A stretch of 64,000 nucleotides of DNA from Wenyingzhuangia aestuarii. GTDB lineage: Bacteria; Bacteroidota; Bacteroidia; Flavobacteriales; Flavobacteriaceae. Under the pieces are notes generated by a model, which did no database searches, had not been told where the DNA came from, and saw only the letters and a program-made list of their open reading frames with translations. The translations under genes were made by a program, and so were the position numbers. Below are positions 35,899-39,966 of the stretch, in pieces; position 1 is the first letter of the stretch; each line of letters opens with the position of its first letter. The DNA lies in the NCBI RefSeq assembly GCF_011927765.1, contig NZ_JAATJG010000002.1, positions 248,001 to 312,000 on the forward strand. The letters run 5' to 3'.

Positions 35899-37097
35899 TT
35901 ATACATTAAATATTTTTGTCTAATTAGCTTAAAAGCTTCAAGATCTTTTTTCCAACTGTTTTCTATTTCTTTAGCAGTTAGTCCGTTTTTTAACTGTTGC
36001 TCTAAAAGAGTATCTCCTGCGTGAATGGTGAATGTTTTACCAAAAAAATCTTCTTTTTTAGGGTATTTGTTATATGCATCTACCAACCACTTTATATTTA
36101 CTTTGTTTTGATGGAATTCTAAACTTAAATCTACACCATAACAAGTTTTATTTTGATCTTTAGGATATTTACTTCCAAAATTGGCTTTAGGAATATAAGT
36201 AAAATCAGCTTTTGGAAATAGAGAACTCCCATATCTCTGAAATTGAAATTCGGTTCCTCTACCAGCATTAATAGGAGTTCCCTCAAAAAAACCTAAACTA
36301 GGATATAAATTAATGGCTTGGTCATTAGGTAAGTTAGGAGAGGGTCTAATCGCTAAATGATACTTGCTTTGATGTGTATAGTTTTTTAACGGAATTACGG
36401 TTAAATCACATTGAATTCCATTTTTTAACCATTGTTCTCCATTAATCATTTTTGCATACTCTCCAATGGTCATTCCGTAGACCAAAGGAACAGGGTGTTT
36501 TCCTACAAAAGAACTGTGTTTTGGATTTAACATAGGACCATCAATATAATGGGCATTAGGATTCGGTCTGTCTAAAACGAATACAGGAATGTTATTTTCT
36601 GCACAAGCTTCTAATACGTAATGTAGTGTTGATATATAGGTGTAAAAACGAACTCCTACATCTTGAATATCAAAAATTACGATATCAATATTTTTTAAAT
36701 CTGCAGCTGTTGGTTTTTTATGATTTCCGTACAAAGAAATAATAGGCAAGTTTGTTTTGGTGTCTATTCCGTTAGCAACATGCTCTGCAGCATCTGCTTT
36801 TCCTCTAAATCCATGTTCTGGAGAAAATACTTTCTGAATATTAATATTTCTTTTTAACAAAGAATCTACCAAATGGGTGTGTCCATTTTTATGAAAAATA
36901 ACCGAAGTTTGATTGGCAACAATTCCAATTTTTTTCCCTTTTAAACTTGGCAAGTAACTTTCTGTATGGTTCGCAGCTTCAACAATAGGGGCAATGCTAG
37001 TTTTATTTTGAGCACTACAAGAGGATAAAAGTGTAAATGAGAAAAATACAAGAATTAAAAATGTATTTTTGACTACCAATTTAAAGGGCATAAGCAT
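35895..37097 (-). CDS. namZ: Exo-beta-N-acetylmuramidase-like lipoprotein (NamZ, DUF1343)
   Basis: This 400-residue protein has a lipoprotein signal (FFSFTLLSSC, Cys near residue 28). The DUF1343 domain contains GKKIGIVANQTSV, KVFSPEHGFRG, IVIFDIQDVGVRFYTYISTL, VFVLDRPNPN and GRGTEFQFQRYG. NamZ enzymes release N-acetylmuramic acid from the non-reducing ends of peptidoglycan glycans and take part in cell-wall recycling. Alternative ATGs exist at 37097 and 37091. The first coincides with the start nucleotide of the divergent LolC-type gene, so the two genes share no intergenic spacer. Confidence 0.88.
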   Translation of the reverse strand: MLMPFKLVVKNTFLILVFFSFTLLSSCSAQNKTSIAPIVEAANHTESYLPSLKGKKIGIVANQTSVIFHKNGHTHLVDSLLKRNINIQKVFSPEHGFRGKADAAEHVANGIDTKTNLPIISLYGNHKKPTAADLKNIDIVIFDIQDVGVRFYTYISTLHYVLEACAENNIPVFVLDRPNPNAHYIDGPMLNPKHSSFVGKHPVPLVYGMTIGEYAKMINGEQWLKNGIQCDLTVIPLKNYTHQSKYHLAIRPSPNLPNDQAINLYPSLGFFEGTPINAGRGTEFQFQRYGSSLFPKADFTYIPKANFGSKYPKDQNKTCYGVDLSLEFHQNKVNIKWLVDAYNKYPKKEDFFGKTFTIHAGDTLLEQQLKNGLTAKEIENSWKKDLEAFKLIRQKYLMYN

Positions 37098-38332
37098 TGA
37101 ATTTCGAATTATTTATAGCTACAAGATTAACCAAATCTAAAGAATATAAAAATAGTATATCCTCTCCAATCATAAAAATTGCCATATCAGCAATTGCGTT
37201 AGGTTTGGTAATGATGTTGGTATCTATTGCTACAGGTATTGGTTTGCAAAGAAAAATTAGAGAAAAGGTAGCTGGATTCAACGGTCATGTGGTGATTAGT
37301 AATTTTGACAACAATCAATCTAAAACTACCCAGCAACCTATTTCTAGTGTTCAAGATTTTTATCCAGAATTTACAGCAGTTAATGGAGTAAAACACATTC
37401 AGGTATTTGCAACACGACCTGGAATTATTAGAACAGAATCTGATTTTGAGGGAATTGTATTAAAAGGAGTAGGAACAGATTACGATTGGTCTTTTTTTAA
37501 AGAATATTTGGTATCGGGTACGGTTCCTGTTTATAATGATAAAACCTCTAGTGATGTTTTAATTTCTCAGTTAATATCTGACAGAATGCAATTAAAGGTA
37601 GGAGATACTTTTGATACTTTTTTTGTGAAAGAAAATTCCAATACACTACCTAGTAGAAGAGTTTTTAATGTGGTAGGTGTTTACGATTCTGGTTTTGAAG
37701 AATTTGACAAAAGCTTATTAATAGGAGATATTAAACAAGTACAACGATTAAATAAATGGAATGCCAATCAGGTAGGTGGTTTTGAAGTTTTTATTGATGA
37801 TTTTAATCAAATTGATACTACTTCTAAAGAAATATATCAAACCATTGATGCTACGCTAGATAGTAGAAATTTATTTGAACAGTATCCTCAAATCTTTGAA
37901 TGGTTACAGCTGTTTGACGGAAATATAGCCATCATTATTATTATTATGGTTGTGGTTGCGGGAATTAATATGATAACTGCCTTGTTGGTCTTAATTTTAG
38001 AAAGAACACAGCTAATAGGGGTCTTAAAAACACTAGGAGCTAACAGTTGGTCTGTAAGAAAAATATTTTTATACAATGCTTCTTACATTATAGGTAGGGG
38101 CTTGTTAATAGGAAACGTAATTGGTTTGTTGTTATTGTTTTTACAATATCAGTTTGAATGGATTACACTAGACCCTCAAAACTATTATGTACATGTAGCA
38201 CCTGTTTATATTACGGTTTATCAAATAGTATTGCTAAATGTAGGTACGTTGTTGCTCTGTTTGTTAATGATGTTGATTCCATCCATTATTATCACAAAAA
38301 TAAATCCATCAAAATCAGTAAAATTTTCATAA
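37097..38332 (+). CDS. LolC/LolE-type ABC transporter permease (FtsX family)
   Basis: This 411-residue permease starts with TTG. The N-terminus MNFELFIATRLTKSKEYKN and the first helix (about 26-48, IKIAISAIALGLVMMLVSIATGIG) fit the LolC/E family. A large periplasmic domain of the MacB type follows (about 50-265). The C-terminal FtsX domain has three helices (about 275-300, 322-350 and 370-400). The flavobacterial proteins are thought to release lipoproteins from the inner membrane with a LolD ATPase encoded elsewhere. The start codon lies back to back with namZ at the same base. The tandem hairpin array begins right after the stop. Confidence 0.9.
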   Translation: MNFELFIATRLTKSKEYKNSISSPIIKIAISAIALGLVMMLVSIATGIGLQRKIREKVAGFNGHVVISNFDNNQSKTTQQPISSVQDFYPEFTAVNGVKHIQVFATRPGIIRTESDFEGIVLKGVGTDYDWSFFKEYLVSGTVPVYNDKTSSDVLISQLISDRMQLKVGDTFDTFFVKENSNTLPSRRVFNVVGVYDSGFEEFDKSLLIGDIKQVQRLNKWNANQVGGFEVFIDDFNQIDTTSKEIYQTIDATLDSRNLFEQYPQIFEWLQLFDGNIAIIIIIMVVVAGINMITALLVLILERTQLIGVLKTLGANSWSVRKIFLYNASYIIGRGLLIGNVIGLLLLFLQYQFEWITLDPQNYYVHVAPVYITVYQIVLLNVGTLLLCLLMMLIPSIIITKINPSKSVKFS

Positions 38333-38417
38333 AAAAAAACGCTTCAGGTAACTACTCCTGAAGCGTTTTTTTAACTAACTAAACTATACTAAATCGAAAA
38401 ATTTTATTTCTAACTTA
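38331..38417 (-). ncRNA. Candidate small RNA, copy 1 (sigma54-like promoter plus terminator)
   Basis: On the minus strand the promoter TTTGGCACAGTACTTGT (38445-38429) has the GG and the -12 dinucleotide exactly 10 nt apart, as in sigma54 promoters, with GT replacing GC. The predicted start is near 38417. A body of about 50 nt runs to a hairpin CGCTTCAGG-AGTAGTTA-CCTGAAGCG and a run of nine T. The hairpin can also terminate the convergent LolC-type gene. Promoter type and transcription are inferred. Confidence 0.5.
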
Positions 38418-38532
38418 TAGTATTAAGTACAAGTACTGTGCCAAACGTATAAATTAGATGTTTTTTATTGAGAAAAAAGAAATAATATTTTTCTTGTTAT
38501 GATCACTTTTAAGATGTGGAAACAAACTGCAT

Positions 38533-38624
38533 AAAAAAACACTTTAGGTAACTACTCCTAAAGTGTTTTTTCAAACTAACTAAACTAAACTATACTAAAT
38601 CGAAAAATTTTATTTTCTAACTTA
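38533..38624 (-). ncRNA. Candidate small RNA, copy 2
   Basis: The minus-strand promoter is TTTGGCACAGAACTTGT (38652-38636), with predicted start near 38624. The body is nearly identical to copy 1. The terminator stem is CACTTTAGG/CCTAAAGTG with the same AGTAGTTA loop. Compared with copy 1, two base pairs of the stem changed on both sides, keeping pairing. Confidence 0.5.
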
Positions 38625-38738
38625 TAATAGTAATTACAAGTTCTGTGCCAAACATATAAAATAGATGTTTTTTATTGAGAAAAAAGAAATAATATTTTTC
38701 TAGTTATCATCACTTTTAAAATGTGAAACAAATTGCAT

Positions 38739-38829
38739 AAAAAAACACTTTAGGTAACTACTCCTAAAGTGTTTTTTCAAACTAACTAAACTAAACTATA
38801 CTAAATCGAAAAATTTATTTTCTAACTTA
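38739..38829 (-). ncRNA. Candidate small RNA, copy 3
   Basis: The minus-strand promoter is TTTGGCACAGTACTTGT (38857-38841), with predicted start near 38829. The body and terminator (CACTTTAGG-AGTAGTTA-CCTAAAGTG plus T-run) match copies 2 and 4. The upstream region of this unit has lost about 25 bp relative to copies 1 and 2. Confidence 0.5.
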
Positions 38830-38918
38830 TAATAGTAATTACAAGTACTGTGCCAAACGCATAAATTAGATATTTTTTCGGGTTTATCATCACTTTTAAA
38901 ATGTGAAACAAACTGCAT

Positions 38919-39010
38919 AAAAAAACACTTTAGGTAACTACTCCTAAAGTGTTTTTTCAAACTAACTAAACTAAACTATACTAAATCGAAAAATTTTATT
39001 TTCTAACTTA
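38919..39010 (-). ncRNA. Candidate small RNA, copy 4 (next to lipA)
   Basis: The promoter, directly 3' of the lipA stop, reads TTTTGGCATAGAACTTGT (39039-39022), with one change (CAC to CAT) from the other copies. Predicted start is near 39010. Body and terminator are the same as copies 2 and 3. Because lipA points the same way, read-through from lipA is an alternative source of this RNA. Confidence 0.45.
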
Positions 39011-39042
39011 TAATAGTAATTACAAGTTCTATGCCAAAAGAT

Positions 39043-39966
39043 TTAATTTACGTGTTTTTTTGCATGATAAGATGATCTTACCAAAGCAGAGCTTTCTACA
39101 TGAATAAAACCTAATGATTTTGCATATACCTCGTACTCTTTAAATAATTCAGGAGTTATAAATTCTTTTACAGGTAAGTGTTTTTTACTAGGCTGTAAGT
39201 ATTGCCCTAAAGTAACAACATCTACATTTGCATTGGCTAAGTCTCTTAAGCTTTCAAAGACTTCTTCTTTAGTTTCTCCTAAACCAAGCATAATACCAGA
39301 TTTGGTTCTACGTTGTCCTTGTGCTTTAATATATCTTAATACTTCTAAACTTCTATCGTATTGAGCTTGTATACGCACTTCACGAGTTAAACGTCTAACG
39401 GTTTCTAAGTTGTGAGAAATAACTTCTGGACCTGCTTTAATCAATCGATCAATATTGGTTGTGTTTCCTTGAAAATCTGGAATTAAAGTTTCCATAGTTG
39501 TGTTAGGATTTGCTCTACGTACAGCAGCAATAGTTTCTGCCCAAATAATAGAACCTCCATCTTTTAAATCATCTCTATCTACAGATGTTAAAACTGCGTG
39601 TTCAATTTTCATAATTTTAATAGAACGAGCTACTTTTTCAGGTTCATCCCATTCAACCGTTTCTGGCTTTCCGGTTTTTACACCACAAAAACCACAAGAA
39701 CGAGTACAAATGTTTCCTAAAATCATAAAGGTTGCAGTACCGTCTCCCCAACATTCTCCCATGTTAGGACAACTTCCACTAGCACAAATGGTGTTTAACT
39801 TGTATTTGTCTACCAAACCTCTTAATTCTGTGTATTTTTTACCCACGGGTAATTTTACACGTAACCAATCTGGTTTTTTCTTTCCAACAGGAATAGTACC
39901 AGGGTTTGTAGTTGTATTTTCTTTGCTTGGTAATACAGATTTAAATGTAGATGTTTCCGTACTCAT
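39043..39966 (-). CDS. lipA: Lipoyl synthase
   Basis: This 307-residue radical SAM enzyme carries both cluster motifs of LipA: the auxiliary [12 protein letters not shown] (C-x4-C-x5-C) and the SAM-binding CTRSCGFC (C-x3-C-x2-C). The C-terminal serine motif is in [11 protein letters not shown]. It inserts two sulfurs into octanoyl groups on E2 and GcvH proteins. It looks monocistronic, and its 3' end abuts the candidate small-RNA array. Confidence 0.97.

Follow-up and report, generated by a model that had tools for sequence, protein, structure and literature searches.

The window analysed here is a 64-kb stretch of the Wenyingzhuangia aestuarii genome. Between lipA and a lolC-like gene it contains a gap in which four direct-repeat units (38333-39038) lie in tandem on the minus strand. 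The features of this region are as follows.

37097..38332, plus strand: lolC-like FtsX/MacB-type permease gene (FtsX and MacB_PCD domains, Pfam), the convergent neighbour, with its stop at 38332
38333..38417, minus strand: predicted sRNA of unit 4 (from the repeats; fold z-score -5.5)
38428..38445, minus strand: putative sigma54-type promoter of unit 4, TTTGGCACAGTACTTGTA (exact pattern match)
38533..38624, minus strand: predicted sRNA of unit 3 (from the repeats and a match to covariance model R1)
38635..38652, minus strand: putative sigma54-type promoter of unit 3, TTTGGCACAGAACTTGTA (exact pattern match)
38739..38829, minus strand: predicted sRNA of unit 2 (from the repeats and a match to R1)
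38840..38857, minus strand: putative sigma54-type promoter of unit 2, TTTGGCACAGTACTTGTA (exact pattern match)
38884..38912, minus strand: spacer block TTTGTTTCACATTTTAAAAGTGATGATAA, located 5' of the promoter of unit 2 (from the sequence)
38919..39010, minus strand: predicted sRNA of unit 1, about 92 nt, with a 5' hairpin, the UAGUUUAGUUUAGUUAGUUUG seed stretch and a terminator (from the -24/-12 geometry)
38969..39001, minus strand: conserved body/seed block of unit 1, the reverse complement of AACTAAACTATACTAAATCGAAAAATTTTATTT (repeat family D4)
39021..39038, minus strand: putative sigma54-type promoter of unit 1, TTTGGCATAGAACTTGTA, with GG at -24 and GT at -12 (exact pattern match)
39043..39966, minus strand: lipA, lipoyl synthase (Radical_SAM and LIAS_N domains, Pfam), the upstream, co-directional neighbour, with its stop at 39043

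The first promoter starts 4 nt past the lipA stop codon, and the promoter-to-promoter distances are 181, 205 and 207 nt, which bears out the four tandem promoter-to-terminator units that a preliminary description had placed in the gap. The body/seed block recurs at 38377-38409, 38583-38615 and 38789-38821 with an identity of 94-100% (repeat family D4). Spacer blocks resembling TTTGTTTCACATTTTAAAAGTGATGATAA were also observed near 38705-38733 and 38498-38526, each ahead of the next promoter, and it is possible that these blocks are activator (UAS) sites; the spacer repeats of congeners differ from them. Since the array runs into the convergent lolC-like gene and has no co-directional gene downstream, a role as leader or attenuator is excluded. 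A coding or leader-peptide reading was also rejected, because ATG is absent from all four predicted RNAs and the lolC-like gene is convergent.

The predicted transcripts are 85-92 nt long. Each folds into a weak hairpin at the 5' end, a stretch of some 20 unpaired nucleotides (within UAGUAUAGUUUAGUUUAGUUAGUU) and, last, a long terminator. Their fold z-scores are near -5; the RNA of unit 1 has a z-score of -5.1 and scores 74.5 bits with R1. As originally described, an AT-rich body, here lacking a start codon, is followed in every unit by a hairpin with a T-run: the 3' ends form perfect inverted repeats of 15-16 bp with an 8-nt spacer. The terminator stem of unit 4 (CGCTTCAGG/CCTGAAGCG) carries two compensated pair changes relative to units 1-3. 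A T-run is present on the plus strand of the hairpins too, so that they could terminate transcription in both directions. Covariation in the terminator stem amounted to 163 double-change cells against 50 in shuffled alignments and was abolished by sliding the partner, in an alignment that was fitted to the structure and is therefore biased towards it.

The promoter box and sigma54

The box TTTGGCAYAGNNCTTGTA was found exactly at four minus-strand sites, where 0.09 were expected, and none of 100 shuffles contained four copies. It occurs nowhere else in the window, even with up to 2 mismatches. All four units keep GG-N10-G, the sigma54 spacing, with GT at -12, the final T replacing C; in many members of the family described below the -12 dinucleotide is likewise GT or GA rather than GC. 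The -24/-12 box with exact spacing and GT for GC had been noted before, and placing its GG at -25/-24 gives the same predicted +1 positions (39010, 38829, 38624 and 38417). The preliminary description had made its reading depend on rpoN, which is present in this genome as well as in 20/20 relatives (21/21 genomes). Strong Sigma54_activat domains were identified in four proteins of the genome, and both of the Pfam-typed ones also bear a receiver domain.

In order to score the association of the box with the rest of the unit, the seed core and terminator were searched for in the 80 loci selected by LipA, with the promoter left out of the element search. The box was scored as GG(C/T)(A/G)(C/T)-N5-T(T/A)G, 25-100 nt upstream of a seed-terminator element. 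It accompanied 11 of the 12 elements found, as against 1.6% of random windows, in a test that is partly non-blind because the core pattern was learnt from units first spotted through the box. Across the whole genome TTGGCAYN5TTG was barely above its control (25 vs 19), and the box alone is therefore not diagnostic.

In Flavobacterium psychrophilum, a -24/-12 motif (SM4) has been mapped at the starts of chaperone and envelope genes and of the putative sRNA Rfp36, and the SM4 motif at remF has been confirmed by mutation (PMC9723704). The box in the array could instead be read by the main sigma factor, through TTTG at -33 and an AT-rich -7 region. The flavobacterial sigmaA -7 box is TAnnTTTG (PMC9723704), and an AT-rich region and a GT at -12 would suit such a promoter. 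TAnnTTTG is, however, absent downstream of the box, and GGCAY-N5-TTG is constant across genera whereas the -7 region varies, so that we regard reading by the main sigma factor as improbable. The four units are, very probably, sigma54-type sRNA genes, and the earlier sRNA/sigma54 interpretation of the array is supported. For the array itself we infer transcription, the use of sigma54, an inducing signal and repression.

Distribution of the family

The arrangement in the lipA gap is kept in 7/7 sampled genomes of the genus, with 1-5 copies. A LipA scan of named genomes yielded the 80 loci used above. Among these, a clearly related unit was observed 3' of lipA in Tenacibaculum, Lutibacter, Polaribacter and several other Flavobacteriaceae, and no such box was seen at the Flavobacterium, Chryseobacterium, Winogradskyella and Algibacter lipA loci examined. 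Promoter, body and terminator are conserved in this gap throughout the genus and in other genera, GGCAY-N5-TTG included; the preliminary description had held that without promoter and hairpin pairing in relatives only decayed tandem terminators would be left.

We built one covariance model, R1, from the lipA-linked units and a second, R2; a model without the promoter was set aside because the terminators aligned poorly. The covariance-model search proposed at the outset gave R2 matches in 112/395 Flavobacteriaceae genomes and 72/203 genera. A fifth, dispersed unit was found in the organism's own genome (R1 E-value 0.004-0.006), outside the training set:

1498-1622 of locus L103 (G000:C1:159539), plus strand: promoter TTGGCACGTACTTTG, body TTTTTCATAGTTTTAGTTTA and terminator

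When 60 matches were fetched, 20 lay directly 3' of lipA in the same direction; other contexts were a gene for an SPFH protein (7), uvrA (7), a hybrid kinase gene (5) and an apparent HPPD gene (3). All but one (59/60) overlap no long ORF. Searches of Rfam at gathering and relaxed thresholds gave sub-threshold matches only, for example SpF11 on the opposite strand. Judged by these sequence comparisons, the array is the lipA-linked branch of a previously uncatalogued, predicted sRNA family that extends across the Flavobacteriaceae.

The array might also be a functionless plain DNA repeat or a set of decayed tandem terminators. Tandem duplication is evident, and terminators between convergent genes may be bidirectional; yet conservation or covariation over many genera is seen in the promoter, in the seed and in the stem alike, which makes a functionless repeat very hard to credit.

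Among other members, units of type B recur in several genera with an SPFH/Band_7 gene on one side and a second conserved gene on the other (L240, L183, L184, L186, L251). Closely similar elements made up of TTGGTTAGTT plus a terminator were also seen in 3'UTRs without a -24/-12 box, some of them behind heat-shock genes. They lie 3' of clpB in L317, L323 and L326, 3' of hsp20 in L325 and L402, and 3' of a gene for a LuxE-domain protein in L316, L318 and L319; others are in L321, L322 and L412. It is possible that these box-less elements give rise to 3'UTR-derived sRNAs. In the organism's own genome a similar TTTGGTTAGTTT-terminator element is located about 130 nt past a radical SAM (DUF3362) gene (L343 1500; G000:C1:319999, plus strand).

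Predicted pairing with susC start regions

The body of the lipA-type relatives, approximately 5'-ACUUUGUUUUCAUUGUAUAAAUUAUUUGAGUUAGUU, largely complements the leader of a SusC subfamily, CUAAUUCAAAUAA...AUGAAAACAAAG, including the start codon. Three lipA-type RNAs were compared with 16 SusC start regions, taken from three genomes without a demonstrated lipA-type sRNA. Their mean energies lay between -16.4 and -17.5 kcal/mol, and those for other genes between -11 and -12. This difference was reached by 0/60 dinucleotide shuffles, a control that removes only in part the confounding effect of leader composition, the leaders being A-rich and G-poor. The best single duplex with a SusC start region was formed by the RNA of L089 (-30.8 kcal/mol).

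Within genomes the outcome varied. In G039, which has three lipA-type sRNAs, one susC ranked 1/298 sampled genes (-29.4; 0/2000 shuffles, minimum -22.1) and a second ranked 165/298. Three susC genes of G298 stood at ranks 5, 9 and 197 of 592 genes, and in the congener G004 two stood at ranks 9 and 56 of 314. The window's own sRNA showed a weaker preference for susC: its mean was -14.9 with the 21 susC start regions of its genome and -11.7 with signal-peptide genes (p=6e-4; 2/200 shuffles). The lipA-type RNA of G298 showed no preference for the SusC genes of its own genome (-12.4 vs -12.7). From this result we take it that pairing follows lineage, as it should where an RNA and its targets evolve in step. 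A leader resembling TTTTTGGC..GGCTAATTCAAATAAA..ATGAAAACAAAG was also observed to be shared, across several genera, by one susC subfamily, MKTK-SGILTL (L366, L367, L369, L368, L461).

Type-B RNAs (GGTTGGTTAG; UUGGUUGGUUAGUU) did not show a clear susC preference in the duplex comparison. Their perfect target was not enriched ahead of ATG in a pattern search (109 vs 95), and many of the extended matches turned out to be the antisense strand of additional seed-terminator elements. The pattern TCAT..TKRGTTAGTT was enriched in some genomes but not in the organism's own.

These results bear on what the RNAs bind. The units may be sigma54-driven sRNAs whose G/U-rich stretch is mainly bound by an RNA-binding protein, a chaperone resembling RbpB or Hfq, with targets elsewhere or with the RNA titrating the protein. 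Such a role would suit the GRTTAGTT core, which is kept while the remainder varies and recurs beside terminators in clpB, hsp20 and other 3'UTRs without a -24/-12 box, as well as the type-B members without susC pairing; moreover, the FopS sRNAs bind RbpB (PMC11697453). It leaves unexplained the match of at least 25 bp between the body of lipA-type members and the susC AUGAAAACAAAG start region, and we consider it rather unlikely. A further possibility, somewhat doubtful in our view, is that the main targets belong to a different class (other surface proteins, lipoproteins or Skp/OmpH-like periplasmic proteins), with susC one of many. The second-best of the 298 genes in G039 resembles, as judged by eye, a gene for an Skp/OmpH-type protein (-26.6), and the organism's own genome has perfect ACTAACTAA leaders ahead of some surface-type proteins. 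Among the groups tested, a consistent shift was seen in susC only. We put at about even the chances that the RNAs act chiefly on susC-type mRNAs. Repression of SusC is a prediction, well supported for the lipA-type family and moderately so for the genome of the window.

Proposed mechanism and related systems

Taken as a whole, the explanation towards which we lean, with some reserve, is that the array consists of stand-alone, sigma54-driven sRNA genes whose RNAs of about 90 nt base-pair with susC-type mRNAs and block their translation. Each of the four paralogous non-coding genes would be its own transcription unit, with a -24/-12 promoter and an intrinsic terminator. An NtrC-type activator would sense a signal and lead Esigma54 to transcribe the sRNAs. 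The unpaired stretch beside the terminator would then pair with mRNAs for SusC-type transporters at their 5' leader and start codon; in other lineages it would be joined by the UUUUCAU arm, which is part of the 5' hairpin. The duplex would block ribosome binding and so turn off production of the outer-membrane SusC-type importer, and several gene copies would raise dose and speed. The array RNAs are likely to act as trans-acting antisense RNAs.

Qrr sRNA genes act in quorum sensing and are usually dispersed. The likeness to the Qrr RNAs of Vibrio drawn in the preliminary description stands for layout and promoter type. In both systems near-identical sRNA genes occur in several copies in a genome, and every copy has its own sigma54-type promoter and terminator. 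The likeness does not extend to sequence: there was no Rfam match at the gathering level, and no Qrr match even at E<=5.

That description also knew of no sRNA family with such a layout in this group, a statement now tempered by Rfp36 (PMC9723704) and the multicopy FopS RNAs (PMC11697453). Rfp36, also from the Flavobacteriaceae, is a putative RNA with an SM4 sigma54-type promoter and a mapped start (PMC9723704, Table 2); compared by description rather than sequence, it is a single listed RNA as against four tandem units, and the lipA gaps of Flavobacterium that were examined contain no such unit. FopS of Bacteroides thetaiotaomicron resembles the array in being a set of multicopy paralogous sRNAs in the Bacteroidota, and has been shown experimentally to repress susC at the start codon (PMC11697453), whereas for the array such pairing is a prediction. 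FopS is transcribed at 14 loci from a canonical sigma-ABfr promoter (PMC11697453), whereas the array has -24/-12 promoters in tandem at lipA, and no Rfam or sequence link between the two was found. Because it fails the sequence comparison with Qrr and the promoter comparison with FopS, we assign the array to neither. It represents a new family of predicted sRNAs whose proposed mode of action is a familiar one, and in predicted function it is closest to FopS.

The enterobacterial sigmaE/Cpx sRNAs MicA, RybB and CpxQ are stress-induced, some are 3'UTR-derived, and they repress mRNAs of outer-membrane proteins. They differ from the array in sigma factor and phylum, and no sequence relation is known. 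More tentatively, and well short of even chances, a family-wide sigma54-to-sRNA circuit may join the lipA, SPFH, uvrA and hybrid-kinase loci and the clpB/hsp20 3'UTR relatives in one envelope/heat-stress network that shuts off SusC-type importers. If true, this circuit would be the Bacteroidota counterpart of the sigmaE/Cpx sRNAs and Qrr, masking the SusC leader and start codon.

Flavobacteriaceae are major polysaccharide degraders that depend on SusCD systems and, to our knowledge, almost nothing is known of their post-transcriptional control. The array, if our reading is true, would place the shut-off of nutrient importers under an alternative sigma factor, through pairing at the susC start codon, and would form part of an sRNA regulon spanning the Flavobacteriaceae.
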